A DNA stretch of 28,262 bases. Source: a virus. Where the stretch lies: positions 1-28,262 of IMG/VR virus record IMGVR_UViG_3300025319_001201, one strand, 5' to 3'. The translations under genes and the position numbers were made by a program. The notes under the pieces were generated by a model. That model did no database searches, was not told the DNA's origin, and was given only the letters and a program-made list of their open reading frames with translations. This document shows, one piece after another, positions 1-23,604 of this stretch (the stretch's first letter is position 1; each line of letters starts with the position of its first letter).

Positions 1-1
1 T

Positions 2-112
2 GACCTCCAGAGCCTCCAGATGATCATTGGGATCCTGGGCCAGAAACCCAATGACAATATGAAACCACTGCCGGATCAGCGGCCGCCTCGGCGCCACAAG
101 GCCCTGGTGTAG
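2..112 (+). CDS. C-terminal end of an unidentified protein (partial)
   Basis: An open frame enters from the left edge and ends at a TAG at 110-112, four bases before the GTG of the RNA polymerase gene. Only 36 residues are visible. They end in a proline- and arginine-rich tail (DQRPPRRHKALV). The codons have the same GC-rich third positions as the neighbouring genes and the spacing is tight, so it is probably the upstream member of the same transcription unit. Nothing in the fragment identifies a family. A missing structural gene such as the portal is possible but unsupported. Confidence 0.6.
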   Translation, partial: DLQSLQMIIGILGQKPNDNMKPLPDQRPPRRHKALV

Positions 113-115
113 CCG

Positions 116-6100: not shown

Positions 6101-8950
6101 CGAAGAGCCTCGTTTTCTGCGAGTAGTGCTGGCAAAGTTCTCGCGGGATGGATTGGAAAAGGTGCGGAGAACAAACACTTGCCTCCGTTCTTTTTGACAT
6201 CTCCATTGGAATTTAGAAGGGGCTTGTTCGCGGGGTTGATGGATACCGACGGATCGATTTCGGTTTCTACAGCTAAAAGCAAGCCTCAGTTGATGTCCAA
6301 TTTTACGAGCATCAGTTTGCGCCTGGTTCGTGAGGTACTGTTATTAGCGGCGTCACTAGGAGTACGTGGACGTATCACGGCTTTTAAGTCGTCCTCTACA
6401 GGTAAGCCCTCATGGATAGTTAGCTTCTCAAACTACGATGTCAAGAGGTGGGGCGGCGCAGGTATGGCGTGCTCACATAAACTGGAGCTATTACGTTCAA
6501 TCGAGATAGGGATTACCCCATCTCTCGTGCGCCACGATCTTGTTCCTATCTCTGTTTCCTTGGCCCAGCACATCTACAAAAGTATTCCTATGGAACGCAG
6601 CGCCCCGCAGGCTCGCAAGAATGCGTATTTCAACTTTAACAAGGCAGCGAAAGAAGGCTATGTAACACGAGATGCTGCTGAACGAGTCACATCTTACGTG
6701 TCAATAAATCAGATTGTGGCCCACCCCGATGGCGCTCTGTGGTGGAACATCGTCCAGCAGACGGATGTTACGTGGGACATGGTGGAATCCGTGGAGGTCA
6801 CGGGTATTCGGGAGACGGGTTACGACCTCACGGTCCCGGGGCACGAGACCTTTATGAACGTCGAGGGTGTCGTGCTGTCCAACACCGTATCGGTCTACGT
6901 CCCGGCCACCGAGGCGGCGAAGGAAGAGGCCAAGGGTCTCGTCCCGAGCCGGAACCTCTTCGGCGTGAAGTCCGGATCCCTGATGCACAAGCCCCAGCAT
7001 GAGCAGCAGTTGGGGCTTTACCTGTTGACCGAGGAGGGGAGGAACACAAACCAGGTGTTCCAAAGTTTCGACAAATTGATGGAAGCGTATGGCCGTCGAC
7101 AGGTTCGCCTCCAGGACGTCGTGACCTTTGGGGGGCGCAAGACGACCTTAGGACGCCTCCTGGTGGCCAACGCGATCCCCATGGGTCGTCTACATGACGA
7201 CTGGTACCAGAAGATCGCGTACGACCGAAAATTCCGTCTGGACAAACATCAGGTCAACAGCCTGATGGTCCAGGTGGGCAAGACCCAGCCGGCCGATTTC
7301 CCCCAGTTCCTCACGACCATGCGGCAACTGGGGGACAAGGCTGCCTTTACCCTCGGGGCGTCGGTCAGCATGGCGGATCTCAAGCCGATGAAAGATTTGG
7401 CCAAGCATCTTCCCAACGCCACGGACTCGGTCCGCCGGATCGAACAGTACAGCACGGCCCGTGATAAGGTCGAGCACGAGGCCAAGCGCCGGCTCTCGGC
7501 CCAGGACAACGGGTTGTACAAGACCGTTGTCTCGGGTGCCCGGGGGACATTCGACCAGTTGAAGCAGATTGTCTTATCGCCTGGCATGATTTCAACGGAG
7601 GCGGGCCGCGTGGCCCCCAAGCCGATCAACCGGTCGTATGCCGAAGGCTTGAAACTCGGGGACTACTGGACCACACTCCACGGGGCTCGGCTTGGCATGA
7701 TCTCGAAGTCCCGCGGGACCGCGCTCCCGGGGTACCTGTCCCGCCAGATCATCAGCACGGTGGCAGATGCCCGGGTTACCACGGAAGATTGCCAGACGAG
7801 CCAGGGGATATACGAGGATGTGAAGAGTCGTGACATCATCGGGCGTTACCTGGCCAAGGCCCAGAAGATCGGGAACAAGTCAGTAGCTAAGGACACTCTT
7901 GTGGATGGCACGGTCGTGATGTCGGCCCGCAACGCAGGGGTATCGAAACTGTTGGTCAGGACTCCGTTGAAATGTGAAGCTCATGATGGCATCTGTGCCA
8001 AGTGTTTTGGCCGGTGGCACGACGGTAACGATCCGTCCGTCGGTACCAACATCGGGGTGATCAGTGGCCAGTCCCTTGGGGAACCCACGACCCAGTTGTC
8101 CATGAAGCTGTTTCATGAAGGCGGCGTGGCATCCAAGGCTTCGAAACTCGTGGATCAGTTCGCCGTGGCCGAGACCCTGCTGAAAGCGCCGCTTCGTCTT
8201 AAGGACGAGGCCGTCCTGAGCCAGGTGACCGGTACCGTGACATCGATCAACAAGACCGCGACCGGATGGAAGGTCTTCGTTGGGACCAAGGAACAATTTG
8301 TCCCGGCGTCCAGGACCCTGGAGGTTAAGGTTGGGACCAAGGTTCAACAAGGGGACAAGATTTCGTCTGGTCAGGTGAATGTCCACCAGCTCGCCAGCCT
8401 CGCGGGCATTGGGGCCGCGCAGAACCACATGGTAGGGTCTCTCCACGAACTCTACGGACCCCTTGGGGTTGACAAGCGCCACATCGAAACGGTGGTGCGC
8501 CACATGACTGACCTCGGGGTGGTGGATCAGGCCGACGGTGCCTCGGGGTTCGGGCGTGGTGATGTCGTCTCGATGGCCAAGATCGAGGCGTTCAACCGCC
8601 GCTACATGGCGCCCGACTGGGCCATTGGAAAAAAACTGGCGGAGAAGTACCTCAAGTATGGCCGTGGCACCGAGGTGACGGACCTGGTGGCCAAGGACCT
8701 CAAGGATCACAATATCAATAGGGTCAAGATTGAAGATGGCGGGGCTGTCAAGGCCAACCCAATGATCCGGGGGGTCAACACCATGCCCTTGATCCGGACG
8801 GATGATTGGGCAGCCAAGATGTCGTTCGAGCGACTCCGCGGCACCATGGAGACCGGGGTCCTGACGGCCGCGAAGGCCGACATAGCGGGTCGGTGGCCCC
8901 TGCCGTCCATCGGGTTCGGCAAGATTCAAGATCCCAAAACAGCAGGGTAA
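116..8950 (+). CDS. Fused beta/beta-prime multisubunit-type phage RNA polymerase with two inteins
   Basis: This protein should be a DNA-dependent RNA polymerase carrying both large-subunit halves in one chain. The beta part (about residues 1-1363) shows KTPEGSTIG near 386, GDKLVGRHGNKGIISKI near 769, the LMNP/VNLGQ motif split by intein 1, and the beta C-terminal GGQSIGILDTYAL near 1283. The beta-prime part (about 1364-2944) shows RPVLMKRDPVLHKFGIQAF near 1701, the metal-binding DFDGD (Asp 1742, 1744, 1746), a Cys cluster (TTEDC upstream, then C2620, C2627, C2630) matching the second beta-prime zinc site, and the trigger-loop motif GQSLGEPTTQLSMKLFHEGG near 2651. It ends with a recognisable beta-prime C-terminus. 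Removing both inteins leaves about 2074 residues, shorter than E. coli beta plus beta-prime (about 2750); the N-terminal beta-prime zinc ribbon is not visible. The start is GTG at 116. The gene lies among virion genes, which suggests but does not prove a virion-packaged polymerase. Confidence 0.93.
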   Translation: MAYFTTEESDGHAKDAVERAIKEVFTDITVGDKTLRLDGVQVDQRLDPQDYESQRQTKLKSGVWGMSVSGLFSLLDQNGKVKDTGRVKLMTLPQKTARHTFIFGGQEYQFDTQFRLKPGIYTRVTDAGEFASRISAEGKYYRNTEIFFDPQTKVYTLGVGTSHVPLATLLDLMGVSVQELELAVGKEVATANLGKAKPGDYSKLYKALFDLDPGPKPDYQVIVQALHDSKLDPDATEYTTGMRLSSVDKTAILTTMKKLFKLVRGETEEDDPNSLVTKSVHYYEDYLREWILKHGSEVRRKISNKLPHANKVEDTISTSILMPAIGKLFTATPLAQRREQHNVVDILSGTGKTTLRGPGGISDPNMIRDDMRTIHSSHMGFLDPIKTPEGSTIGTTLFLSSLARKRGNELVATFMDVKTGKEVDLTPKQVFDTVVAFPDEYDFEVKPPKAKSSKVMASHRGDVRDYPPSEVQYVPASQAGLFHHTTNLIPFLRSNNGVRAMTASRQIEQAISLTHREAPLVQLKYGRSDSTAEQGFGRYLGASLSLVDGEVSSVRQGKIIVKDKAGASSVVNTYRDFPLNNSKGYINSEALVSVGDKVKKGQVLADTNYTKNGTLALGTNLRVAYVPWKGLLFEDALAISESAATKLTSDHLHQFVVELGEKSISGRDKFRNYFPNNISHAQSQKLDSDGVITVGQEVSRGDYLYAGMFEKEVDPDSEAILRVGTRAFQSFGDSSIQWEKDYPGVVTAVEKFAKKYIVHVKTKEPAVEGDKLVGRHGNKGIISKIVPDAEMPHDLEGKPFEILMNPACYDDKTEVLTENGWLPFSQVSQGDVVASMHPNGELVYESVLAVHRSFYVGPMYRIKNKKLDLMVTPNHRMYTRKGDSNEKSPYEINEAKKIFGQRRYYLKNSEKWVGSSAEVVRFGEPEDRDGTGPKADPRKLEIAPSEFAEFLGVFIAEGWACRREGGIYDVGLSQSQRLNPDKCVEIERFLALLPWSFSRRERDNGQVEWTARNRELCLWLMEHVGTGAKNKRIPRQALAWPSATLELLLNGLMLGDGSTRNSPQTSHYDNRRYFTASKGLADDVQELALKLGVSAQITTQISCFRETVTDIFVVSFLKRSTPSVNWPGKKHAQVEKWVHYEGDVFCLTVPSGLLYVRRNGVPVWSGNSVVGRVNLGQVYETLVGKVAAKTGNPVVVDNFASEQDNHKYVADMLKKHGLQDREIVVDPVDGPTENPVLTGNQYIFKLTHQVDKKLSARGAVSKTTGERLQYTGDKIPSKGGSEGGQSIGILDTYALLANGATANLKEMFSYKGDAQNALFWSTLKNGGVLPAAEVPFTATKFLALLEAMGVHVKKDGNSLQLLPMTDRDIETMSAGELKNPGQALDAKLRPYQGGIFDSQRTGGLHGKKYTHMNLPFPVVNPVTRDGAVRLLAYHHPDHGGTLVDKILEGHLGLNKKGDIVPVVEATVVGGAAVQNLLARIDVDKSLKTVEQDLETAAPSNVNTINKTRKYLKALKELGYTADQAYCLTKFPVLPPLFRPIVVNKNGTISNEDINELYRKLGETIEAVNQGDKKLPPEMMAQRSAAIQDMVDAVAISGYSAHNRTMKGVMQLISGTSPKYGFYQKKVLKRRQDLSARSTIVPNPELDVDTIEVPDKALWELFGPFVTRSLVQSGYPVAKAAEHVKDKTEVAKTALLNELKDRPVLMKRDPVLHKFGIQAFHAKSSSGNTIRIPPSVTTGYGADFDGDQILDTVVVFATDSVLCQHILEQGAEDMTARLKTVLPTMDIHGMVFLLDLQDFPHGELIGAKQGEKGPIEFYAVPNGVYVLALDETVGALVWSPVTVWSKHLDREIEIITLASGRQIVSDDDPRAVYGMAAGTLLYGRFQPATAVESRVLVPRGQRLSIPEILHNAFTGAENSNRPRSHQVFPEVVLTEKLGYFLGAAAGDGWVSSIDQICLASIDDDVVLRFAEGLAEMMQTGLVPFSLAHVTTSYGESRRASFSASSAGKVLAGWIGKGAENKHLPPFFLTSPLEFRRGLFAGLMDTDGSISVSTAKSKPQLMSNFTSISLRLVREVLLLAASLGVRGRITAFKSSSTGKPSWIVSFSNYDVKRWGGAGMACSHKLELLRSIEIGITPSLVRHDLVPISVSLAQHIYKSIPMERSAPQARKNAYFNFNKAAKEGYVTRDAAERVTSYVSINQIVAHPDGALWWNIVQQTDVTWDMVESVEVTGIRETGYDLTVPGHETFMNVEGVVLSNTVSVYVPATEAAKEEAKGLVPSRNLFGVKSGSLMHKPQHEQQLGLYLLTEEGRNTNQVFQSFDKLMEAYGRRQVRLQDVVTFGGRKTTLGRLLVANAIPMGRLHDDWYQKIAYDRKFRLDKHQVNSLMVQVGKTQPADFPQFLTTMRQLGDKAAFTLGASVSMADLKPMKDLAKHLPNATDSVRRIEQYSTARDKVEHEAKRRLSAQDNGLYKTVVSGARGTFDQLKQIVLSPGMISTEAGRVAPKPINRSYAEGLKLGDYWTTLHGARLGMISKSRGTALPGYLSRQIISTVADARVTTEDCQTSQGIYEDVKSRDIIGRYLAKAQKIGNKSVAKDTLVDGTVVMSARNAGVSKLLVRTPLKCEAHDGICAKCFGRWHDGNDPSVGTNIGVISGQSLGEPTTQLSMKLFHEGGVASKASKLVDQFAVAETLLKAPLRLKDEAVLSQVTGTVTSINKTATGWKVFVGTKEQFVPASRTLEVKVGTKVQQGDKISSGQVNVHQLASLAGIGAAQNHMVGSLHELYGPLGVDKRHIETVVRHMTDLGVVDQADGASGFGRGDVVSMAKIEAFNRRYMAPDWAIGKKLAEKYLKYGRGTEVTDLVAKDLKDHNINRVKIEDGGAVKANPMIRGVNTMPLIRTDDWAAKMSFERLRGTMETGVLTAAKADIAGRWPLPSIGFGKIQDPKTAG
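2537..3616 (+). mobile_element. Intein 1 with LAGLIDADG endonuclease, in the beta half
   Basis: This is an in-frame 360-residue insertion (protein residues 808-1167) between ILMNPA and SVVGRVNLGQ. Rejoining the flanks restores the beta motif seen in E. coli as VLNP..VPSRMNIGQ. It has canonical class 1 features: Cys1 in block A (CYDDKTEVLTENGW), a block B TPNH at intein residues 65-68, block F DVFCLTVPSG near 336-345, and a terminal Gly-Asn followed by Ser at +1. Two LAGLIDADG-type motifs, FLGVFIAEG (143-151) and LLNGLMLGDG (241-250), indicate a homing endonuclease. The penultimate residue is Gly rather than the usual His. The DNA is visibly richer in A and T, with different codon choice, than the flanking exteins, as expected of a mobile insertion. 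Confidence 0.93.
5354..6883 (+). mobile_element. Intein 2 (atypical, Gln1) with LAGLIDADG endonuclease, at the beta-prime active site
   Basis: This is an in-frame 510-residue insertion (protein residues 1747-2256) immediately after DFDGD. Joining DFDGD to TVSVYVPAT restores the exact length of the bacterial DFDGDQMAVHVPLT loop, which fixes both borders: Gln at position 1, Asn at 510, Thr at +1. The C-terminal blocks are clear (GYDLTVPGHETF near 489-500, then VVLSN). Two LAGLIDADG motifs are present: LGYFLGAAAGDG (190-201) and LFAGLMDTDG (291-300). It departs from the norm in several ways. Position 1 is Gln, not Cys, Ser or Ala. The block B region reads SGRQIVSDDDPRAVYG (112-127), with Asp where the TxxH histidine should be. 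The penultimate residue is Ser. About 50 residues precede the first typical Hint strand. Splicing activity is inferred from the essential site, not shown. Confidence 0.85.
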
Positions 8951-10071
8951 TGGTGCTGAACCGCGATGATCAGCTCACGAGCCTGAAGTTACCAGACCCT
9001 GGGGGCGGGTGGGTACCGCCGGATCGGCCTGTCCTGATTGAAACGGCGGAAGTCGTGCGGGTGGATCCAGATCTGTGGACGTGTGATCTGGAATGCAAGT
9101 TCTCGGGCCGTAGACCGTCGAACATTGAGATCGGGGGCCTGGGGGTCAGTCGCAACGGCACCATGATGGGGTACATGCCCCAGGTGGGGGACAAGTGCAT
9201 CGTGGCCCACCTGTCGGACGTCCGGAGCCCCGTGATCCTGATGTTCCTCCCGGTGGTGGCCCAGAGGGGCTACGCCCGGGGTCGCCGCAAGGCCATGCGG
9301 CCGGGTGACACCATGATGTCGTCGGAATCAGGGAACTACGTCCACGTGCATGCCGGTGGAATCGTCGACATCGCGGCCGACCCCGTGACCCGCCGGATCT
9401 TCATCCCCCTGCTCCACCAGATCAAGGACATCTGTGAAAACTATACCCTCGAGACCGCCGGGGGCGAGTTCCGTTGGAAGAACCGTCGGGATGAGAAGGG
9501 GATCGACGGGACCCCGGTGGAGCTGGTCTACGAGGTCAAGGAATTCAGCAAGGGTGAGGTGGTCTTGGTGTTGAAGCAAGGGAACGTGACCGACGTGACC
9601 GACATGCCAGACCGTCCCGTGGACCACAGGGCTGTGCAAAAGGATGGCGAAGAAGTGTTTCGCTGCACTGTCGACCGGGCCGGTAACCTCAAGGTCACGG
9701 CCGCGAGCACGACGCTCGAATTCACTGATGATTTCGACATGACGGTCGAGGGTGAATTCAACATGTCGGCTACCGGGAAGGCGAAACTAAATGGAGACTC
9801 AGGCGTAGAATTGGCAAATGCCACGGAACCAGCGGTCTTGGGCACGACCCTCAAGACCCAGTTGGAGGCGTTCCTCACGGGTATGTCCGTCTTGATGGAC
9901 AGCCTGGCGGCCACGGGGGCCGCCTTGGCTGTTGCGGCGCAAGGTCCTTTGGCAGCCCTACAACCTGGGTTCCAGCAGATTGCCCCTGCGGTCACGACTA
10001 CCAAGGGGTCGATCGAGACGTTCAAGACTTCCCTGGCCCAGGCGTTGGCTCGTGACACCAAACTATCGTAG
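8950..10071 (+). CDS. Baseplate spike / gpV-gp5-like tail protein
   Basis: Probable baseplate central-spike protein of a contractile tail, 373 residues. The ATG at 8950 overlaps the polymerase stop codon (TAATG); the open frame extends further upstream, but that part lies inside the polymerase gene. Residues near 70-105 (MGYMPQVGDKCIVAHL, then SPVILMFLP) have the pattern of the OB-fold domain of gpV/gp5 proteins: a pore-facing loop, a V-G-D turn and a closing strand. A middle region (AGGIVDIAADP, LETAGGEFRW) and a repetitive beta-rich stretch near 255-290 (LEFTDDFDMTVEGEFNMSA) fit a beta-helical shaft. The C-terminal 80 residues are Ala-rich and helical. The spike assignment is by pattern only. 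Sitting directly behind the polymerase, it ties that gene to the virion module. Confidence 0.65.
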   Translation: MVLNRDDQLTSLKLPDPGGGWVPPDRPVLIETAEVVRVDPDLWTCDLECKFSGRRPSNIEIGGLGVSRNGTMMGYMPQVGDKCIVAHLSDVRSPVILMFLPVVAQRGYARGRRKAMRPGDTMMSSESGNYVHVHAGGIVDIAADPVTRRIFIPLLHQIKDICENYTLETAGGEFRWKNRRDEKGIDGTPVELVYEVKEFSKGEVVLVLKQGNVTDVTDMPDRPVDHRAVQKDGEEVFRCTVDRAGNLKVTAASTTLEFTDDFDMTVEGEFNMSATGKAKLNGDSGVELANATEPAVLGTTLKTQLEAFLTGMSVLMDSLAATGAALAVAAQGPLAALQPGFQQIAPAVTTTKGSIETFKTSLAQALARDTKLS

Positions 10072-10074
10072 ACT
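10045..10074 (+). promoter_or_regulatory. Sigma-70-like promoter, leaderless type
   Basis: TTGGCT (10045-10050), an 18-bp spacer and TAGACT (10069-10074) lie in the end of the spike gene. The -10 box is six bases (AGAGTC) before the ATG at 10081, so transcription would start at or next to the start codon. The same layout recurs before 16568 and 23663. The -10 box alone is weak; the shared geometry is the main support. Confidence 0.5.
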
Positions 10075-10080
10075 AGAGTC

Positions 10081-12105
10081 ATGGCGAACCTGTTCAAACC
10101 CAAGCCCCAGTTGACCGACACGTTCGAGAAGGCCGCGAGCCTCAGTATCCAGTTGGCCAACCCGCCGGAGGACTGGGAATCCGAGATCACGGACTACGCC
10201 TACCGGTTGCACCCCTGGCTCGTGGACTTTACCATCGCGATCGAGTTTCTCAAGAAGTTGCCGGATCGTCAGTATGGGATCGGGAGCATCTTGGTGTCGG
10301 CCAAGCAGCCAATTTCGCCCGAGCGTCAGCTCGGAAGCGCCTTCCAGCAAGGACCACAAAGTCAAGGAGCTGAGCAGGAGGTAATGGCCAGTATCCCGTT
10401 GATCATTGCCGAGGGGACCCTCGCGCCGCTCGATATCTTCATCTCGGGATCAACGGTCTGTGCCCTGGACGAAGACAATTTCAAACGCAAGGCTGGGGAA
10501 CTCACCCAGATGGGCAAGTATACGGGCCGGATTTCGTCCGACCCCACGCTCATTGGGTACCTATGGCCACCGTCCCGTACGTTCTTTTTTGGGTCCGGGG
10601 GCATGGACATGGGGTCCGCCATGATGGGGGGTGTCAAGCTGGCGGAAGACAGTCGTCTCGACGATGCCAAGTTTTTCTACAAGGCCCAGCGTCTTGGGGT
10701 TGAGGAACTTGAGATGTTGTCCGATTTCACAGGTGTGCCGTTTTCAGACCGGTTTTCCAAGGGGGCTGCTTATGTGAACCCCCAGAAGGTCAAGATCCTG
10801 CAGGAGAAGGTCGCCCAGGAGCCTGGGCTGGCCGATATCCTGGGGCCTTTGATCGAGGCGTTGGCCGGGACGTCCTCAGGAGTCCCGCCGGTCCGGGGGC
10901 CAGTGGTCCAGGTGCTCCAAGGGGTTGATGGAGCCACCGTCCGGGCCACCGACCCCACGGGGTTTAGCTTTACCCGCAGGGCTTCGATCGACATCCCCGG
11001 GGGCACGGACATTGGCAACGGGATGTTCTGCAGCCTCAAGCCCACGGCCACGATTAAATCGTCGAACGCCACCACCGTGAAGTTCGAATACCCGGCGGTC
11101 TGCGCCGCGACCCTGCAGGACGGCCAGGATCAGAAAGTTGGGTTCTTGGTCTCCACGGTGGTGGACCTTGACGGTAACCCCACGGGCAAGAGTCTGTTTG
11201 TCGATGCCAAGCGTCAATCCTGGGCCATGGAGTCGACACTCTATTGCTCCGTGGGCCGGGAACTCCAGGACATGAAAGGTGGGGTGCCCCAGGGCACTGG
11301 TTTCTTCCTTGCGGAAGGTGAAAAAGGACTTGTCGCCATGGTCCCCATGACCGTCCGGTCTATTGCCAAGGCCAAGGAAGGGACATGCTACTTCTGCACA
11401 GTCCACGAGTCTGGAGTGGCGTCCCGCGGGTTCCCGATGGACACGAGCCTCAAGGTCTACGTGGCCCAGGGGCTCCGGAGTCCCATCTATAGCCCCGAGA
11501 CCCAGGTCCTCACGGTTCCGGCATTTTTCAAGTGGGTTCCACTTGGGGATACAAGGTTTCGGCCGTTCGCCCCCCTGCGGGTGGACCCGACGGTCAAGGT
11601 CATGAAGCTGGCGAGTAACCTGTTTGCTCTCGAGGGCCAGGCGGTTTCCTCGATCGTGACCGAACCATTGGATTCAGATGATACCGCGCTGGTCTTGCTG
11701 GCCACCGGGGTGCCGGCCAATCAGGTCGAGACCGTGTTGGACAAGGTGGCGGACGAGGGGCTCGTGGAACTCACGGGGTGCCGTACCCTTGTCCCGAGGG
11801 GCAAGGTCTCGGTGGAGATCCCCTGGGTAGACATCGAATTCCTCAAGGCCGCGGCCATGCTGGACGATCCCAACAGTGTCGACGCTGTCCTGGGGCTTGG
11901 GCTCCTGGATACCGAGATCGAGAATGACTACAACTCGATGGCCCAGGACCTGGAGCGAGCGCAACAGAAGGTTGCACGGTTGCTACTCCTGAGCCGCCTG
12001 GGGATGCACGAGATCCCCGAGGGCCCGGCCAAGGTGGTGATGACCCGGATGCAACCCATTATCGACTCCCTGCGGGCAATCTCGCTCCAGGGGCTTTATC
12101 GATGA
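10081..12105 (+). CDS. Large virion-module protein of unknown function (674 aa)
   Basis: I do not recognise the family with confidence. The protein begins at ATG 10081, nine bases after the spike gene, behind a promoter-like sequence. Residues 1-100 are helical and charged (DYAYRLHPWLVDFTIAIEF). Residues near 100-125 (SIPLIIAEGTLAPLDIFIS) form a short beta-rich segment, followed by a Gly/Met-rich stretch (GSGGMDMGSAMMGG, near 173-186). The middle (about 280-520) is beta-rich and proline-rich. Positions 590-674 are helical (ILPFL-type helices, YNSMAQDLERAQQKVARLL). There is no signal peptide or obvious membrane segment. Its size and place between spike and terminase genes suggest a virion or tail component. 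A portal is conceivable from length and location, but no portal pattern is visible. Confidence 0.75.
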   Translation: MANLFKPKPQLTDTFEKAASLSIQLANPPEDWESEITDYAYRLHPWLVDFTIAIEFLKKLPDRQYGIGSILVSAKQPISPERQLGSAFQQGPQSQGAEQEVMASIPLIIAEGTLAPLDIFISGSTVCALDEDNFKRKAGELTQMGKYTGRISSDPTLIGYLWPPSRTFFFGSGGMDMGSAMMGGVKLAEDSRLDDAKFFYKAQRLGVEELEMLSDFTGVPFSDRFSKGAAYVNPQKVKILQEKVAQEPGLADILGPLIEALAGTSSGVPPVRGPVVQVLQGVDGATVRATDPTGFSFTRRASIDIPGGTDIGNGMFCSLKPTATIKSSNATTVKFEYPAVCAATLQDGQDQKVGFLVSTVVDLDGNPTGKSLFVDAKRQSWAMESTLYCSVGRELQDMKGGVPQGTGFFLAEGEKGLVAMVPMTVRSIAKAKEGTCYFCTVHESGVASRGFPMDTSLKVYVAQGLRSPIYSPETQVLTVPAFFKWVPLGDTRFRPFAPLRVDPTVKVMKLASNLFALEGQAVSSIVTEPLDSDDTALVLLATGVPANQVETVLDKVADEGLVELTGCRTLVPRGKVSVEIPWVDIEFLKAAAMLDDPNSVDAVLGLGLLDTEIENDYNSMAQDLERAQQKVARLLLLSRLGMHEIPEGPAKVVMTRMQPIIDSLRAISLQGLYR

Positions 12106-12111
12106 GCCGCC

Positions 12112-12879
12112 GTGGAGATCCCGGCGCGGGAATTCTACCGGTACCTCTTGCTCTGCGGGCATGATGCCAGTGGGATCACCAGGTCACTGGATGATCACCT
12201 CGTATTCCTGCCACCCAACACCGATCAATATTTCGACGAGCAGCGCGAGTGGGCCCTGGGGCTCCTGGGTCAAGGGCATCATCAAGTTACCCAGGCGATC
12301 CGTAAGGCCGGGTACTATGACATGTGGGCAGCACATCGGCGCCGGCGGGCAGGGGAATCGTGCCAGGTGGCCTACTCGCTGGTCAACAACCAGATGTTCC
12401 GTAACCCGATCGAAGCCTTGTTGCTCAACGGGTACACCGACGACGAGGTCGCGGGTGCGATCAACCGGTCCATCACCCATCCCCACGCGGTCAAGCTCCA
12501 GGACATCACGGCGTACCGTAGGTATTTTTTTAACCCCCGGATTCTCAAAGCCCGGGACATCTACTACCTCACGCTGAAGTGTGGGTGGCTCCGGTATTCC
12601 CTCCTGGGGCTCGAGCCCACGTTTTTGGAATTCGCCTTGAGGCTTCGGTATAGTACCGGCAGAACCATTCAGGAGACTGCCTACATCCGCGGGTTGCAAA
12701 CTTGGCTCGTTACGCTAGAATCATTACCCATCCGGACGGATCGCGAGGGGATCAAATCTCTCTCGGGATTCCTCTCATCCGTCAAGACGTTTGACCATAG
12801 CGATCATTTCAAAAAACCTGAAGACACCTTGATCGTAAAGTTGATGACTGAAAACGCAAGTCCCCTGGAGGTTCTGTGA
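12112..12879 (+). CDS. Unknown protein with helix-turn-helix-like segments, possible small terminase
   Basis: A 255-residue protein starting with GTG at 12112, six bases after the previous stop. It is largely helical. Residues near 103-150 (NPIEALLLNGYTDDEVAGAI, then a segment ending AYRRYFFNP) read like a helix-turn-helix followed by a helix, and another helical unit lies near residues 10-70. Two genes upstream of the large terminase, it occupies a plausible position for the small terminase subunit or another DNA-recognition protein. That role is inferred from position and fold impression only. The end overlaps the next gene by GTGA, implying translational coupling. Confidence 0.7.
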   Translation: MEIPAREFYRYLLLCGHDASGITRSLDDHLVFLPPNTDQYFDEQREWALGLLGQGHHQVTQAIRKAGYYDMWAAHRRRRAGESCQVAYSLVNNQMFRNPIEALLLNGYTDDEVAGAINRSITHPHAVKLQDITAYRRYFFNPRILKARDIYYLTLKCGWLRYSLLGLEPTFLEFALRLRYSTGRTIQETAYIRGLQTWLVTLESLPIRTDREGIKSLSGFLSSVKTFDHSDHFKKPEDTLIVKLMTENASPLEVL

Positions 12880-13421
12880 CGCAACACCTGCAAGTTCAAC
12901 GAAGCCTTGAGGTCGGGGGGATCCCCGTGTCCTCGATTGCCAACCAGGCGGCCAGCCTGGTGGGGTCATATTTCCATAAAGCTGGTCCCCACGTGGTCGT
13001 GGACTACAAGTACGATGCCCCGACGAACAAGTTTCAATTCCATATTTTTCCCAGGGTTCCGGACTACGAGACCTTCCTGCCCGACAACCAGACGTTTGCC
13101 AAGGCCATGGAGGGGGCGGTCATCGAGGTGTTGGGCAAGTCGGTCCAGGTGGACGCTGAATTTCATGAGGAAGAGGGCGTGAGCCCCTCGGGCCACCGGC
13201 TTGACACAAGGGTCATGGCCTATTGGCGAGATCCCTCGGGCGCCATCCAGTACTTCCGTGGATCCAACGGCAGGATGACGGATCGGAAACACAAAAACCC
13301 GGTTCCAATGGTGTGGTTCAGCGTGGGGACCGGGGCAATTTTGCTCGACCCCAACCTGGTGCTCGAGCGCATCGCGGGAGCAATTGTTGCGCGAGCCGAG
13401 AAGTTGGCAGGAAAGCCCTAA
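12876..13421 (+). CDS. Hypothetical protein (181 aa) upstream of terminase
   Basis: The GTG start at 12876 overlaps the TGA of the preceding gene. The protein has a helical N-terminus with an Ala/Val-rich stretch (SSIANQAASLVGSYF), then a beta-rich mixed domain (VVVDYKYDAPTNKFQFHIF, and VQVDAEFHEEEG near 90-105), and ends in a helix (LERIAGAIVARAEKLA). I recognise no family, catalytic motif, signal peptide or membrane segment. Its 3' end overlaps the terminase gene by about 35 bases, so both are probably translated from one message. A packaging or head-completion role is possible only by neighbourhood. Confidence 0.7.
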   Translation: MTQHLQVQRSLEVGGIPVSSIANQAASLVGSYFHKAGPHVVVDYKYDAPTNKFQFHIFPRVPDYETFLPDNQTFAKAMEGAVIEVLGKSVQVDAEFHEEEGVSPSGHRLDTRVMAYWRDPSGAIQYFRGSNGRMTDRKHKNPVPMVWFSVGTGAILLDPNLVLERIAGAIVARAEKLAGKP

Positions 13422-15051
13422 ACCGCTGCATCGATGGAAGCCTCCACCTGATCCCAACGCCACCACCGACGTCCAGGTGGTGGAGCAACTTCCATCTAGC
13501 CTTGCGGTCAAGATCATCCGGCTGCGGGATGGCGGCGGGATGCCCTTCACCTTTACCCGCAGGCCGTACCTGTATCCACTGTACGACCGATGGCACAAGC
13601 GCATGGTTGTCATTGGGGGCCGTCAGATAGAAAAAAGCTCGTTTTTATCAAACATGATGCTACTCCCTGCGGTAGCGCAACTCGACGGGCTCCGGGGATT
13701 CCGAACCCTGTACGTCGCGCCAACAGACAAGCACACCCGGACATTCGCCTATGACAAGCTCGACGGCACCCTACGGGCCAGTCCCCTGTTGCGCGAACTG
13801 TTGGGCAAGGAGGTGGTGGATAACCTGTACCACAAGGAGTTCTCCAACGGCTCGTCTGTGTTGCTGCGCTCTGCCTACCTGACGGCCGATTCGGCCCGCG
13901 GGATCCCGTCGGACCAACTGTTGGTCGACGAGGCCCAGGAGATGATCCCGAGCCACTTGCCTGTCCTCCAGGAGACCCTGACGCACTCGCACCATGACCG
14001 GTTCGGCCGCAGGATCTTGATCACCGGGACAGCCAATACTCCGGACTGCCTGATCGGGTCCTATTGGGCTGATTACTCGACGCAAGGCGAATGGGTAACC
14101 CGGTGCCCCAAGGGCCATGAGAACATCATGGAGATCGAGAACATCGGGACCACAGGACCCATTTGTTCTAAATGTCAACAGAATCTCAACGTCCTGGAGG
14201 GCCAATGGGTCCACCAGGCCCCTGGCAAGAAAGACATGTACATCGGGTACCGGATCCCCCAGGTTATCAACCCGATGGTTCTGGACCACTGGGATGAACT
14301 GTACAACAAACTCAAGACCTACAGTAACGCCAGGATCAGCAACGAGATCCTGGGCCGCAGCTACGAACTTGGGGTCAAACCCATCACGACGTCGGATCTC
14401 CGGCGGGCTGCCAACCGGCTCCCCATGTCGGTGGACCAGCAGTACATCCCACAGCCAATCATGGGGGTCGATTGGGGCTACGGGGACATCAGCTATACCG
14501 TCGTGACGATCGGGGGGTGGAATCAACACGGTAAGTTTCAGGTCATCTTCTGCAAGAGGTTCAAGGTAGGGCACGAGGTAAACCCTTTGTACCAGGTGCG
14601 CTACATTCTTGAAATTGCTAAGAAATTTCGTGTCGTGTTCATGGGACTGGACTTCGGGGCCGGGTGGAGCCAGAACACCAGGATCAGGACCGATTTTCCC
14701 AAGTGTTCGGAGTTCGTCTACGCCCATGGCCAGAAGGCCCTGATCAAGTGGAACCGGAATCTCAAGAAGTACATCGTGAGCCGCACCGAGTCCATGACCC
14801 ACCTGTTCGAAGCAATGAAGTCCCAGACCATCGAGGTGTTTGAAGGATACGTCGAGGAGTTCGGCCAAGATTTCCTCAACGTCGCGGTCGCGACGGACAA
14901 ACTCGGGAGAATCCTATATACTCACTCCCCCTTGCGTCCTGACGACGCGATCCATTCGCTCAACTATTGTTTCCTGGTCGCCCGGATGATGCGGAAGGAT
15001 ATCCAGATCATCCACAACGACCAGCTCGAAGATGAAGACGATTTCATATAA
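13384..15051 (+). CDS. terL: Terminase large subunit (packaging ATPase and nuclease)
   Basis: The packaging motor protein translocates genome DNA into proheads with an N-terminal ATPase and cuts it with a C-terminal RNase H-like nuclease. Visible motifs are a Walker A variant GGRQIEKSS (78-86), Walker B LLVDEAQEM (179-187) and the coupling segment ILITGTANTP (211-220). A four-ligand zinc-like insertion follows (C241, H245, C261, C264). The nuclease acidic residues are GVDWGYGD (D363), GLDFGAGW (D423) and LRPDDAIHSLNY (D520/D521). The Walker A carries Glu where Gly is standard, a variant I also associate with other phage terminases. There is no ATG before residue 53. TTG codons at 13384 and 13387 follow GGGAG (13376-13380), and the second has the better spacing. 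Length (about 555) is normal for the family. Confidence 0.92.
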   Translation: MLREPRSWQESPKPLHRWKPPPDPNATTDVQVVEQLPSSLAVKIIRLRDGGGMPFTFTRRPYLYPLYDRWHKRMVVIGGRQIEKSSFLSNMMLLPAVAQLDGLRGFRTLYVAPTDKHTRTFAYDKLDGTLRASPLLRELLGKEVVDNLYHKEFSNGSSVLLRSAYLTADSARGIPSDQLLVDEAQEMIPSHLPVLQETLTHSHHDRFGRRILITGTANTPDCLIGSYWADYSTQGEWVTRCPKGHENIMEIENIGTTGPICSKCQQNLNVLEGQWVHQAPGKKDMYIGYRIPQVINPMVLDHWDELYNKLKTYSNARISNEILGRSYELGVKPITTSDLRRAANRLPMSVDQQYIPQPIMGVDWGYGDISYTVVTIGGWNQHGKFQVIFCKRFKVGHEVNPLYQVRYILEIAKKFRVVFMGLDFGAGWSQNTRIRTDFPKCSEFVYAHGQKALIKWNRNLKKYIVSRTESMTHLFEAMKSQTIEVFEGYVEEFGQDFLNVAVATDKLGRILYTHSPLRPDDAIHSLNYCFLVARMMRKDIQIIHNDQLEDEDDFI

Positions 15052-15078
15052 CCCAACCCCACACCCCTGGAGTTCAAC

Positions 15079-16074
15079 ATGCCCATCGCCATGACCCGCT
15101 ACTTACCTAAAGGATCCGTGTTTTTCGGCACCACGGTAGAGTTCTTCGACATGTTCTGGAAGGTTCTGTCGGGCAACCAGATCAAGATCCTGGGGGCCTT
15201 GGCCAGGAACCAATCAATGGACACAGGGCATCCTGCAAGGTTGTCGATCTCCCGGATAGCTAAGATGTGTGGCATGACCCGCCGGACCACCGGCTTGGGG
15301 ATGGAGGGCCTGGTATCCATGGGGTTGGTGCTTCCGAAGGATGGAGCCTACTACCTCCAGATCCTCACGTTGGACCAGGCATCCGATGCACTCAAACGCA
15401 CAGACGTGATCAGAAACTGCTCACCCGACCTGATCGAAAAATGCTCACATAGCCGATCGAAAACTGCTCAGTTTGGCACAAAAACCCGAGCAGAAACTGC
15501 TCACATATTAAGAGAAGAAGAGGAAGAGAAGGTGGAAGAAAGGGGCCAAGAGCCCCCGGCCCTCGCCTTTCCAGGAGCCGGAGGGGATGGATCTGGCCTG
15601 CGGCCCGGGGGCAAGCTACTGCAACTACCTTCATCGGAACCCCAGATCCCCCGGGATCTTGAGCAAGACCTTAAGGACAAGCTCTTGGCCCAGGAGGCCT
15701 TGGCCATCCAGTTGAACAACTTCATCGTCCAGAAGTCCTACTACCGGGATCCATCCAAGCTCCAGGTCAGCTGGGTCCTCAAGGGGACCCCGGGCCACAT
15801 GACCGATCTATGCGCTAGGGTGGTGTTGTTGACCATCACCAACACCATGATCGAGGTGGCGAAGCAGCACGATCTCCTCCGGGTGCTTCCACGGAACAAC
15901 CGGGAACTGGAGGCTATGGGCGACGTCGTCGCCAACGTCACGATGCACCAGGATTGGGACCAGAGGTTCCGAGCCTTCTACCGGTGGGTGTGCCGCCAAA
16001 AGGATGACCTCGTGATCCAGAAGCTCGACTACTACTACAGCGACTGGAAGGAGGCCCTCAGGGCTAACGGCTGA
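15079..16074 (+). CDS. Phage replication-initiator-like protein (lambda O-like layout)
   Basis: A 331-residue protein with a winged-helix-like N-terminal DNA-binding domain (about residues 30-100: QIKILGALARNQ, LSISRIAKMCGMTRRTTGLG, then LVSMGLVLPKDGAYY). Residues 110-160 form a linker ending in a run of glutamates and prolines. A helical C-terminal domain (about 190-331) could contact a helicase or loader. The DNA coding for residues 110-142 carries four 18-bp iterons, followed by a purine-rich tract: the arrangement of lambda gene O with its internal origin. The ATG at 15079 follows GGAG (15068-15071) at 7-base spacing. A plain transcriptional regulator is the alternative. I infer a replication role from the domain layout plus the iterons; no ATPase motif is present. 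Confidence 0.7.
   Translation: MPIAMTRYLPKGSVFFGTTVEFFDMFWKVLSGNQIKILGALARNQSMDTGHPARLSISRIAKMCGMTRRTTGLGMEGLVSMGLVLPKDGAYYLQILTLDQASDALKRTDVIRNCSPDLIEKCSHSRSKTAQFGTKTRAETAHILREEEEEKVEERGQEPPALAFPGAGGDGSGLRPGGKLLQLPSSEPQIPRDLEQDLKDKLLAQEALAIQLNNFIVQKSYYRDPSKLQVSWVLKGTPGHMTDLCARVVLLTITNTMIEVAKQHDLLRVLPRNNRELEAMGDVVANVTMHQDWDQRFRAFYRWVCRQKDDLVIQKLDYYYSDWKEALRANG
15407..15504 (+). repeat. Four 18-bp iterons inside the initiator-like gene
   Basis: The copies are at 15407-15424 (TGATCAGAAACTGCTCAC), 15431-15448 (TGATCGAAAAATGCTCAC), 15454-15471 (CGATCGAAAACTGCTCAG) and 15487-15504 (CGAGCAGAAACTGCTCAC). Start-to-start distances are 24, 23 and 33 bp. Copy 4 contains a perfect inverted repeat, GAGCAG-AAA-CTGCTC; the others are imperfect versions. 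Because 23 is not a multiple of three, copies 1-2 and 3-4 are read in different frames and encode different peptides. The repetition is therefore a DNA-level feature, not a protein repeat. Confidence 0.85.
15407..15545. other. Candidate replication origin: iterons plus purine-rich unwinding tract
   Basis: The four iterons are followed at once by ATATTA and then 36 bases (15510-15545) that are purine on the plus strand except for one T at 15533. In lambda the origin inside gene O has the same order: iterons bound by O, then an easily melted tract with purine/pyrimidine strand asymmetry. Here the lower-GC stretch stands out against GC-rich surroundings. Origin function is inferred from this architecture and from the initiator-like product of the same gene. 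Confidence 0.62.
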
Positions 16075-16552
16075 TTGGAACCTGGAGTGGTACTCTCGAG
16101 TCCATGGACCTGAGGTTCACGATCGCCAGGGTGGCGAACTTGTCGATCATCTGGTTGGGCCCTTGGGTCAAGAGGTTGAATAGCTTGGCCGCCACCTGGT
16201 GGGGCTGGTGGGGCATCCCCCAGTACCGCTGCAATATCGTGAAGTCTACCCGCGAGGTTCCGGCCAACAGGCTGCAAAGTTGCGTGAGATCCAATTGCTT
16301 GATCATGTTGGTCATCAAGAGGTCGATCAGGAACACGAGTTCGTCCCCTTGGCACCTGAGGTCGAGGGACGAGATACCCAACAATAGTTTGATTTGTTGA
16401 AGTTCCCGGTACATTTCATACCACGTGGTCGAGTCCATCGTGGCGATCAAGACCCCGTCATTGAGTTGTCTCGTGGGCCGGTCGGTGTCCGTCATGATGG
16501 TCCGGACCCGTGCCCTTGATTTTCGGGCTATTGGCACGATCGGCTGGCTCAT
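16064..16552 (-). CDS. Lone minus-strand hypothetical protein (162 aa)
   Basis: This is the only gene I support on the minus strand. Read from ATG (16552-16550) to TAG (16066-16064), it has the GC-rich third positions typical of this genome, while overlapping plus-strand frames do not. The product is helical and Met/Leu-rich, with TTWYEMYRELQQIKLLLGIS and LVFLIDLLMTNMIKQLDL in the middle and an N-terminal basic stretch (ARKSRARVR). No family is recognised, and there is no clear helix-turn-helix, signal peptide or full membrane segment. Its 3' end overlaps the initiator-like gene by 11 bases convergently, and its start faces the promoter of the next gene divergently. This placement suggests a separately regulated small gene beside the presumed origin. 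Confidence 0.7.
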   Translation of the reverse strand: MSQPIVPIARKSRARVRTIMTDTDRPTRQLNDGVLIATMDSTTWYEMYRELQQIKLLLGISSLDLRCQGDELVFLIDLLMTNMIKQLDLTQLCSLLAGTSRVDFTILQRYWGMPHQPHQVAAKLFNLLTQGPNQMIDKFATLAIVNLRSMDSRVPLQVPISR

Positions 16553-16560
16553 GGTACTGT
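16531..16560 (+). promoter_or_regulatory. Sigma-70-like extended -10 promoter, leaderless type
   Basis: TTGGCA (16531-16536), an 18-bp spacer and TACTGT (16555-16560), with an extended -10 element (TGG at 16552-16554). GGAGTCG then separates the box from ATG 16568, so the transcript would begin at or one base before the start codon. It overlaps the 5' end of the minus-strand gene, so expression of the two could interfere. Confidence 0.6.
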
Positions 16561-16567
16561 GGAGTCG

Positions 16568-17737
16568 ATGATCAAGAAGGCGTCGTCAGTTCTCGATTTC
16601 GTCAGTATACCAGCGAAAGCCACCCCCTTGATGTACGAGGGCATGGCCGCCAAGGTAGCGGACGCTTATCTCGAGGGTCAGGTTGATCCCAACGTATCGA
16701 TCGCCCTGTTGGCCCGTGGGGCCGGGTTTTCGGCCGAGCAGATCCACCGGGTCGTGGAACTGTCGAACCACCAGATCAACGCCACGATGTCCAAGACGTC
16801 GAGCGACCAGTTGTTCACTTTCCCCGTCGCGACGGTCGAGGGGGTGGTCATGGCCATGGGGCTGGAGGACGAACCGCAGGATCTCGCGAAGCAAGGGTCT
16901 GATCTGTTGGATTTCGGTGCCTACCACCAGCTTCACCTGATTCCCGACTATGTCCAGATCCTCGTGGCCCAGCGGACCGATCGGCCGGTCGAAGTCGTCA
17001 AGACCGCGGAGCTTGAGCCGGAACCCAACCGGTTGATCCAAGAGAACCAACGGGTTGAGAAACTCGCGTCGTTGGCAGGCGAGATCGAGTACCTGGAGGC
17101 CAAGGTGCGGAGTCGTCTCCATGGGGTCAAGGAGGAATGGGGCAAGCTGGCGTCTGAGGAAGATCAGGTCGAATTCCTGGCGGCCGCGATCTGTTGCCTC
17201 GGGGGCCCGGCGGTTGAAAAGCTGGCGGAAGACTATGGTGCTGTAGCCAAGGGTCTGCTCCCACGGTTGGAGCATCTGGACGTCGAGGTAACCTCGGGAC
17301 AGTTGGACCAGGGGCATCCCATTGTCCAGGGGCTGATGGACCTCAACACCTTGGTCCAGGGGTACAGGGCCAAGGAAGCGGAACACCAGAAGCTCGCGGG
17401 GGTCAAGGACATGGCGGCCAAGATCCTGAAGGTCCCGGGGCATACGACTCGTCAGGTTGCCCGTGCTACTGGTAAAGGCGTGGGGCTCGTGGGCGCGACG
17501 GCCCGGGGGGCAGGGGAAGAGTTCCGCCAGATGACCCCCCTGGGGCTACGGAAGGACATTCGATCCGGCGTGGTGCTGGGGACCGCGGTCGAGGGAGCCA
17601 AGAATCTGCTTGAAGGCGGTAAACTTCGCCCTGGGGCCGCGGCGGCCCGGGGGATAAAGCAAGGGATCACGAGTCCATTTCTGGAGCGGTACCAGCGGAT
17701 CAAAGCCTTGCGCGACACTATCGGGAGTATGGCATGA
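16568..17737 (+). CDS. Helical structural-module protein of unknown function (about 389 aa)
   Basis: First gene of the head module. I place the start at ATG 16568, because the GTG at 16559 overlaps the -10 box of the promoter; a 392-residue product from 16559 is the alternative. Residues 1-110 are helical, with two hydrophobic helices (VSIALLARGAGFSAEQIHRV). A coiled-coil-like stretch lies near 155-200 (ENQRVEKLASLAGEIEYLEAKV). The last third is rich in Gly, Ala, Arg and Lys (TRQVARATGKGVGLVGATARG) and basic. No enzymatic motif is visible. Together with the next gene, which it overlaps by ATGA, it may form a head or internal virion component. The basic glycine-rich tail could bind DNA or membrane, but this is speculation. 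Confidence 0.75.
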   Translation: MIKKASSVLDFVSIPAKATPLMYEGMAAKVADAYLEGQVDPNVSIALLARGAGFSAEQIHRVVELSNHQINATMSKTSSDQLFTFPVATVEGVVMAMGLEDEPQDLAKQGSDLLDFGAYHQLHLIPDYVQILVAQRTDRPVEVVKTAELEPEPNRLIQENQRVEKLASLAGEIEYLEAKVRSRLHGVKEEWGKLASEEDQVEFLAAAICCLGGPAVEKLAEDYGAVAKGLLPRLEHLDVEVTSGQLDQGHPIVQGLMDLNTLVQGYRAKEAEHQKLAGVKDMAAKILKVPGHTTRQVARATGKGVGLVGATARGAGEEFRQMTPLGLRKDIRSGVVLGTAVEGAKNLLEGGKLRPGAAAARGIKQGITSPFLERYQRIKALRDTIGSMA

Positions 17738-22571: not shown

Positions 22572-22600
22572 TTGAGTATTGTGTGAAACTGTTGTAAACT
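22572..22600 (+). promoter_or_regulatory. Promoter candidate for the HNH gene
   Basis: TTGAGT (22572-22577), a 17-bp spacer and TAAACT (22595-22600), with TG directly before the -10 box. Only five bases (TACTC) separate it from ATG 22606, so the message would have almost no leader. It gives the HNH gene expression independent of the capsid terminator. Confidence 0.5.
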
Positions 22601-22605
22601 TACTC

Positions 22606-23604
22606 ATGCCATACAAAGATCCAGCGAAAGAACGAGAGCGAAGCCGACTGAAGTACTACAGACGTAAGGCCATAGTCAAACCGGCAACCGAGTGCTCGGT
22701 TCAGGATTGCCACAGACCGCACGAGGAAGGTAAGGTCAAGTGTTCAAAGCATTTGGCATATATGCGTGGGTACAAGGCCACAAATAGAATACCCACAGAA
22801 TCAAAGAAAGCTAAGGGGCTTTGCATTGGATCTGACTGCACGAAATTGTCTGAGCCAGGGTTTTCCAGGTGTGCCACCTGTAGGGCTCGTGCCAAAGACT
22901 GGGAGGACAGAAATCTGTCTAAGGTTCGAGAGAAGCATGGAGAAATGCGTCACAAAGTAAAGACTGAAGTGTTTATGGCTTACGGTGGTCGATGCTTATG
23001 CTGCGGTGAGCACAGGGAAGATCTGTTGACTTTGGATCATATAGGTGGATATAGGGATGGCCCGAGGGGTGGAGATGCCCTACGGGCGTGGGCAAAACGT
23101 AACGGTTATCCGGTCACCTTAAGGCTTCTTTGTATGAATTGTAATTTTGCTCTTGGGCACCGGAATCGTTGTCCGCACGGTCTTGAGGACTATGGAGTGA
23201 GGGTGGGGCGACCACCTGAGACTGTGTACTCATCGGTGGGTGAGGAGCATAAAGTTCGAGAGCGTAGGCGCAATGGCTATGTGAAGCTCAAGCTCCAGAT
23301 ACTCAACGCCTATGGTGGTCAGAAATGTGCCTGCTGCGGTACCGAGCACCTCGATTTCCTCAGCATCGATCACATAGATAACAACGGGGCGGCCCACCGG
23401 CTGGAAATCACGGGGAGTAAGACGGATGGTCGAAACTTTTACATCTGGCTCCGAAAGAATCACTTCCCCCCTGGGTACCAGGTGCTCTGCCATAGCTGCA
23501 ATCTGGCACGAAATCGCTTCGGTCAATGTCCCCATGAGCGCGAGCGCCTTGCGGCAGCCCCGGGGCCTACGGTCGAGGTGGAGCCTGGGGCCAACCTGGG
23601 TTGA
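22606..23604 (+). CDS. Tandem-HNH homing-type endonuclease with N-terminal zinc modules
   Basis: Probable free-standing DNA endonuclease, 332 residues. I choose ATG 22606; the TTG at 22579 lies upstream of the -10 box. The chain holds two N-terminal Cys clusters (C30, C35, C46, H49 and C73, C78, C89, C92), then two complete HNH units. Unit 1 (125-191) has CLCCG, LDH (D144, H145), CMNCN and CPH. Unit 2 (233-311) has CACCG, IDH (D255, H256), CHSCN and CPH. Each unit has the paired CxxC knuckles that hold zinc and the His expected to activate water. The 5' part of the gene is visibly more A/T-rich than the phage average, while unit 2 is closer to it. Its own promoter and the terminator before it mark it as an accessory insertion between capsid and neck genes. 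Confidence 0.88.
   Translation: MPYKDPAKERERSRLKYYRRKAIVKPATECSVQDCHRPHEEGKVKCSKHLAYMRGYKATNRIPTESKKAKGLCIGSDCTKLSEPGFSRCATCRARAKDWEDRNLSKVREKHGEMRHKVKTEVFMAYGGRCLCCGEHREDLLTLDHIGGYRDGPRGGDALRAWAKRNGYPVTLRLLCMNCNFALGHRNRCPHGLEDYGVRVGRPPETVYSSVGEEHKVRERRRNGYVKLKLQILNAYGGQKCACCGTEHLDFLSIDHIDNNGAAHRLEITGSKTDGRNFYIWLRKNHFPPGYQVLCHSCNLARNRFGQCPHERERLAAAPGPTVEVEPGANLG

Follow-up and report, generated by a model that had tools for sequence, protein, structure and literature searches.

A candidate lambda-like replication origin within an initiator-like gene of a large phage with its own RNA polymerase

The 28,262 bp stretch of viral DNA analysed here (the window) contains, at positions 15079–16074 of the plus strand, a gene for a winged-helix protein of 331 residues. 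Four 18 bp repeats are embedded in the part of this gene that encodes the linker of the protein, and a purine-rich tract follows them. We propose that the protein is a replication initiator and that its gene carries its own origin; it is likely that the two work like lambda O and the lambda origin. A lambda-like origin in an initiator-like gene had been suggested in an earlier note made from the window sequence. The suggestion is supported by the place, number, order and spacing of the repeats, by a match to a lambda O profile and by a comparable gene in a distantly related phage.

The window is the complete IMG/VR virus record IMGVR_UViG_3300025319_001201. Further IMG/VR contigs belong to the same virus: G001 (78,502 bp), which overlaps window positions 1–13853 with two differences, G003 (24,886 bp), which spans window positions 6477–31362 with 12 differences in the shared part, and two more of 16,684 bp and 21,700 bp. 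The sequence examined for this virus totals 96,011 bp (about 96 kb) from four contigs (G000–G003). At window position 13853, inside the terminase gene, contigs G001 and G002 end at most one base apart, and two other contigs continue through this position. The phage appears to be large and little known, and to have its own RNA polymerase. A single ORF of 2944 residues at window positions 116–8950 apparently comprises the two large subunits of RNA polymerase. The match to phage beta/beta' proteins is in its C-terminal part, and two intein-like inserts are seen by eye.

The winged-helix protein has an HTH_36-like DNA-binding domain (15166–15330, plus strand), which matches PF13730 below the curated cut-off. 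Pfam returned HTH models only, all of them sub-threshold (among them HTH_AsnC, E = 0.0046). Among named families, the lowest E-value (0.0011) was obtained with the PcaR-type transcription regulator family TIGR02431 of NCBIfam, a match far below the cut-off of that family. When residues 1–109 were compared with the PHROG families at E up to 1, eight families were matched, of which six are annotated as replication initiation and two as unknown; the best E-value is 0.0064 and every single match is weak. The C-terminal region (approximately residues 188–331; 15640–16071, plus strand), which may recruit the helicase or another partner, has zero Pfam or PHROG matches at E up to 1 and is predicted to contain low-confidence helices. 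Structure predictions of the protein (mean pLDDT 37.8 and 51.8) were too poor for the fold to be judged from them, and with a cut-off of E = 0.001 a fold search with the predicted models was negative.

Profile comparison points to a remote relationship with lambda O. An hhalign comparison with an alignment of 11 lambda O sequences covered residues 29–139 with a probability of 83.9% and an E-value of 7.8e-6, which is a pairwise value. In contrast, 60 shuffled versions of the protein reached at most 0.8% probability (E = 0.073 or worse). When the profile was compared with 70 ORFs of the virus (100–1199 residues, called mechanically), the best of the other 69 had an E-value of 0.075. The N-terminal DNA-binding domain is thus probably a remote homologue of that of lambda O. 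BLASTP against lambda O alone was not significant (E = 2.1), and the protein has no match to Phage_rep_O (PF04492) at E up to 1, a model which lambda O itself matches at 5.7e-36. The profile alignment stops at residue 139 and there is no family match beyond, so that no O-like C-terminal part is recognised. As a match to the Pfam model, a neighbouring loader gene and a recognisable O-like C-terminus are all lacking, we do not claim membership of the Phage_rep_O family. The lambda O profile was also compared with 712 ORFs of four relatives. The best E-value was 0.0057, for an ORF which is helicase-like by eye, and the initiator-like gene of one relative (see below) is not among the 15 best of the 712, which marks the profile as an imperfect detector.

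The repeats, referred to here as iterons, are located on the plus strand at 15407–15424 (TGATCAGAAACTGCTCAC), 15431–15448 (TGATCGAAAAATGCTCAC), 15454–15471 (CGATCGAAAACTGCTCAG) and 15487–15504 (CGAGCAGAAACTGCTCAC). All four were found again where the earlier note had placed them, as 18 bp copies in the linker region with steps of 24, 23 and 33 bp. Copy 1 is identical to the consensus given there, while copies 2, 3 and 4 have one mismatch each. Copy 4 is indeed a perfect inverted repeat around AAA (GAGCAG-AAA-CTGCTC, 6 bp arms). When arms of 7 bp are scored, 6, 4, 3 and 6 of the 7 positions pair in copies 1 to 4; the outer two iterons are good palindromes and the two middle ones are weak. The iterons are free of all differences between the window and G003, and 6 of the 12 differences are bunched within 131 bp (15684–15814) of the 3' half of the winged-helix gene. 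Conservation of the iterons, which had been proposed as a check, extends to this near-identical contig of the same virus and was found nowhere else, so that this sign against an origin is half present.

The copies lie in reading frames 1, 1, 0 and 0. The frame therefore shifts after copy 2, as had been noticed before, and the repeated unit is not the peptide. No other site in the 96 kb of the virus scores as high as the four-copy repeat (45); the runner-up has 39. When the codons of the gene were shuffled synonymously, all 300 versions stayed below this score (maximum 40), and so did all of 2000 synonymous recodings of the linker with the codon usage of the phage (maximum 37). Together with the frames, the recodings bear out the claim that selection acts on the DNA and not on the peptide. 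Codon usage over the later iterons and the tract is among the most atypical of the virus: only 0.36% of 20,590 windows are less typical than the 33 codons from codon 115, and 3.5% are less typical than those from codon 110. The repeat score alone is unspecific: a scan of 737 kb from four relatives gave six sites that score at least 45. Four of these were read; three proved to be in-frame repeats of the peptide, and the other belongs to a winged-helix gene. Many copies elsewhere in the genome had been named as a sign against an origin; a search of the four contigs of the virus for the core AAACTGCTCA, with at most one mismatch, revealed no cluster besides this one.

The near-pure purine tract described after the repeats was confirmed (15510–15545, plus strand; 35 of 36 bases), and we propose it as part of an unwinding element. 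In the 96,011 bp, on both strands, at least 34 purines in 36 bases occur only at 15510 and in the overlapping windows at 15509 and 15511. The Glu/Lys-rich peptide encoded there accounts for most of this purine bias: synonymous recodings average 32.1 purines in 36, and 0.5% of them attain 35. The least stable 50 bp of the iteron region are located at 15492–15541. Only 0.21% of positions over the 96 kb are weaker, and the stretch falls just outside the 25 weakest separate sites. The 45 bp after the iterons have an AT content of 58%, against a gene average of 43%; the corresponding values for lambda are 76% and 52%, and the melting propensity of the tract is moderate. A switch in GC skew, another check proposed earlier, was not seen, which counts against an origin: there is no sign change at the site, and 45 of 48 bins of 2 kb over the 96 kb are G-rich. 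A small dip in GC skew (−0.023) is located just upstream of the iterons.

The gene is placed between the terminase and head genes. Its upstream neighbour encodes a terminase large subunit, of GpA type as judged by family match (13459–15051, plus strand). No helicase or loader gene follows directly downstream: the next ORF (162 residues; 16064–16552) is convergent on the minus strand, has no PHROG match at E up to 0.1 and is no recognisable loader. An HNH/endonuclease VII-like gene (22579–23604) lies directly 3' of the capsid-like gene. An Rfam search gave no match.

Upstream of the window, on the minus strand of G001, family matches revealed a gene for a UvsX-like recombinase and genes for three replication proteins, namely a primase, a DnaB-like helicase and a DNA polymerase (phrog_17) that looks PolA-type by eye; the phage therefore has its own replication machinery. 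The helicase, primase and polymerase genes lie about 22–29 kb upstream, with the DnaB-like helicase ORF at window coordinates of about −8510 to −7074, some 22 kb from the iterons. The earlier statement that no helicase or loader gene is nearby consequently holds within the window but not for the phage, given this helicase gene. A DnaC-like loader (phrog_50) was not found in contigs G000–G003 (96 kb). The DNA polymerase on G001 (50608–53667; L016:10608-13667) is split by an intein-like insert bearing an endonuclease (phrog_4645 at residues 717–820).

The lambda origin is located in the middle of gene O and consists of iterons, every one an inverted repeat, and an AT-rich tract, according to one account (PMC7466680). 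The iterons are bound by O dimers, followed by further DNA bending and then opening, as stated in another (PMC5043065). In the annotated lambda genome (NC_001416), the iterons occupy codons 117–145 with steps of 20, 24 and 23 bp in frames 0, 2, 2 and 1, followed by a purine- and AT-rich tract. Here they occupy codons 110–142 (steps 24, 23 and 33 bp; frames 1, 1, 0 and 0). In both genes the linker region contains four iterons that are inverted repeats, at codon positions that almost coincide, with copies in different frames and a purine-rich tract directly downstream, and the profile match suggests related N-terminal DNA-binding domains. In contrast to lambda O, the gene described here has no match to PF04492 or in its C-terminal part, a GC-richer tract, one step of 33 bp and no adjoining helicase or loader gene. 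Moreover, it lies among terminase and head genes, and the large phage that carries it encodes an RNA polymerase, a helicase, a primase and a DNA polymerase.

The same blind repeat scan, applied to 11 genes of the lambda O family, revealed recognisable iterons in nine, and none in those of phages Brookers and Spoks. Besides lambda O, the closest known systems include P22 gene 18 and the Phage_rep_O genes of HK544, mEpX1 and others. A step of 33 bp also occurs in Pseudomonas phage PAJU2. Another initiator gene that holds its own origin is gene 38 of SPP1 with oriL, which has repeats and an AT-rich unwinding element; in the account cited, and unlike here, the repeats are direct, and SPP1 has a second origin (oriR), a loader (gp39) and a helicase (gp40) (PMC6316719). 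A second repeat cluster of equal strength was not found in the 96 kb of our virus.

A tblastn search of 50,697 phage records with the N-terminal domain gave four hits. The top-ranked one, not significant on its own (E = 2), is a gene of Vibrio phage 1.151.O (L115:2920-3714) annotated only as an HTH protein. This gene encodes an O-like initiator (phrog_391, 3.5e-44) and contains, after the HTH, three palindromic 18-mers which are identical at 17 of 18 positions and follow each other at steps of 21 and 22 bp. Of the other three hits, one (also E = 2) is in a record lacking annotation; the remaining two are annotated as DNA methyltransferases.

An alignment scan with the RNA polymerase identified 46 loci, four from the same virus and 42 from other phages (weakest E-value 3e-4). 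Near the polymerase, a portal gene was found in 14, a protease-like gene in 24 and a terminase gene in 2 of these 42 loci. The winged-helix protein was found by tblastn near the polymerase in none of the 42, nor at E up to 0.1 in the full records of 33 of them. Among 35 records, many of them fragments, two gave an HTH_36 match (E up to 0.01): the window and G025 (IMG/VR 3300033148_006102), a 195 kb contig of a distantly related large phage. With phrog_270 (E up to 0.001), three of the 35 records were matched, namely G025, the window and G031. In G031, it is a different part of the model that matches, to a protein of 223 residues. Both HTH_36 and phrog_270 match most or all of 14 control genomes and so are unspecific on their own; phrog_18020 was found in none of the 35 records, the window included, and is uninformative.

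The HTH_36 gene of G025 (184374–185684, minus strand; L125:4377-5684 corresponds to 184377–185684) is initiator-like and contains embedded iterons. It was the top repeat cluster in a blind scan, and was thus found independently of the HTH_36 search. Four iterons at steps of 24, 24 and 24 bp are located 3' of the HTH_36 domain and are followed by a 45 bp tract (64% AT, 73% purine), so that domain, iterons and purine/AT-rich tract come in the same order as in our gene. However, the iteron sequence is different, all copies are in a single frame, the two proteins are not significantly alignable by BLAST, the gene lies elsewhere in the genome, and it is overlapped by a downstream DnaC-like loader gene (phrog_50, 1.9e-6). 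Because of the single frame, selection on DNA and on peptide are inseparable in G025. The terminase gene of G025, about 56 kb away from its HTH_36 gene, is in the syntenic place, and the next slot holds an ORF of 537 residues with neither a PHROG match nor a match to the winged-helix protein. The architecture thus recurs in one related phage, while iteron sequence and gene place do not. A scan of the relatives with the G025 protein found only the protein itself.

Searches for closer homologues returned only this virus. In IMG/VR, relatives of the winged-helix protein were confined to the same virus; GTDB contigs gave nothing, and there was no match at E up to 1 among the INPHARED phages (50,697 records, tblastn) or among plasmids. 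A sequence search of the PDB gave two hits, both meaningless. Single-sequence scans with terminase, capsid and RNA polymerase found same-virus contigs only, and the capsid protein had no tblastn match among the 50,697 phage records. Two exact AAACTGCTCA cores 10–40 bp apart occur in 25 stretches of IMG/VR, one of them from this virus; in the other 24, no winged-helix gene was seen by eye (context and longest frame read). Five of these loci (L031, L046/L052, L049 and L050) have the pairs in short or no ORFs, a few with TGAGCA half-sites, and are unrelated as far as seen. In the open-licence literature (titles and beginnings of abstracts), none of the matches listed deals with a phage that has a multisubunit RNA polymerase and an origin embedded in a gene.

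From this anatomy we propose the following scheme, in which the protein acts as a lambda-O-like phage replication initiator. Its N-terminal winged helix would bind, probably as a dimer, to the four imperfect inverted repeats in the linker region of its own gene. Occupation of the iteron array would bend and strain the DNA, which would melt immediately downstream, in the weakly paired stretch rich in purines (15505–15545). The C-terminal part may then recruit the DnaB-like helicase, the primase and the DNA polymerase of the phage, either directly or via a host or unrecognised loader. The first steps appear well supported by the anatomy; helicase loading would be the weakest link.

Since the winged-helix gene touches the terminase gene, the main rival is that it encodes the small terminase subunit and that the repeats are its embedded packaging site (pac or cos) beside the large subunit. 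The gene is directly 3' of that for the large subunit and no other small terminase was recognised; two ORFs upstream of the terminase have no PHROG or NCBIfam match. The repeats bear GATC and are reminiscent of the hexamers of P1 pac. There is also a precedent, as the pac cleavage position of SPP1 (coordinate 1) is described as lying inside its small-terminase gene, 43,884 to 311 (PMC6316719). Nevertheless, we consider this reading unlikely: no small-terminase family of PHROG, Pfam or NCBIfam is matched at E up to 1, whereas six of the eight PHROG families of the winged-helix domain are replication initiation families, and the comparable gene of G025 is remote from the terminase gene and overlaps a loader gene. 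Furthermore, the window and G003 pass through the site unbroken.

Winged-helix proteins are often regulators. The protein might accordingly be a transcription regulator and the repeats operators through which it controls its own gene, the convergent gene or the head genes, and the sub-threshold HTH_AsnC (0.0046) and PcaR-type (0.0011) matches are of this kind. This is improbable, however, as no PHROG regulator family was matched at E up to 1, a scan of 14900–16700 for promoters of the sigma-70 consensus only gave no promoter-like match, and four regularly spaced linker sites with an adjoining purine tract follow an origin-like plan. That the repeats arose by chance or as a by-product of repeated codons in a disordered linker is highly improbable: the peptide largely explains the purine tract, and in-frame peptide repeats in relatives score equally high, but the copies here differ in frame, no recoding in 2000 attains their score, and this score ranks first in the 96 kb.

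To our knowledge, few origins have been described for large phages that encode an RNA polymerase. Our analysis provides a precise origin candidate of 140 bp in a phage whose initiator-like and capsid proteins are unmatched in 50,697 phage records. It would extend the origin-inside-initiator plan to a large phage encoding its own RNA polymerase, and its position in the packaging/head block is notable. The discovery of the G025 gene by a blind repeat scan indicates that embedded iterons can reveal initiators. A tentative and rather doubtful extension is that self-contained cassettes of initiator plus origin are swapped among large RNA-polymerase-encoding phages, each placed elsewhere and with its own iterons, here in the terminase/head block. 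If so, replication of this phage would begin amid its late genes, next to those for packaging and a long way from the helicase gene, which possibly couples replication to packaging.
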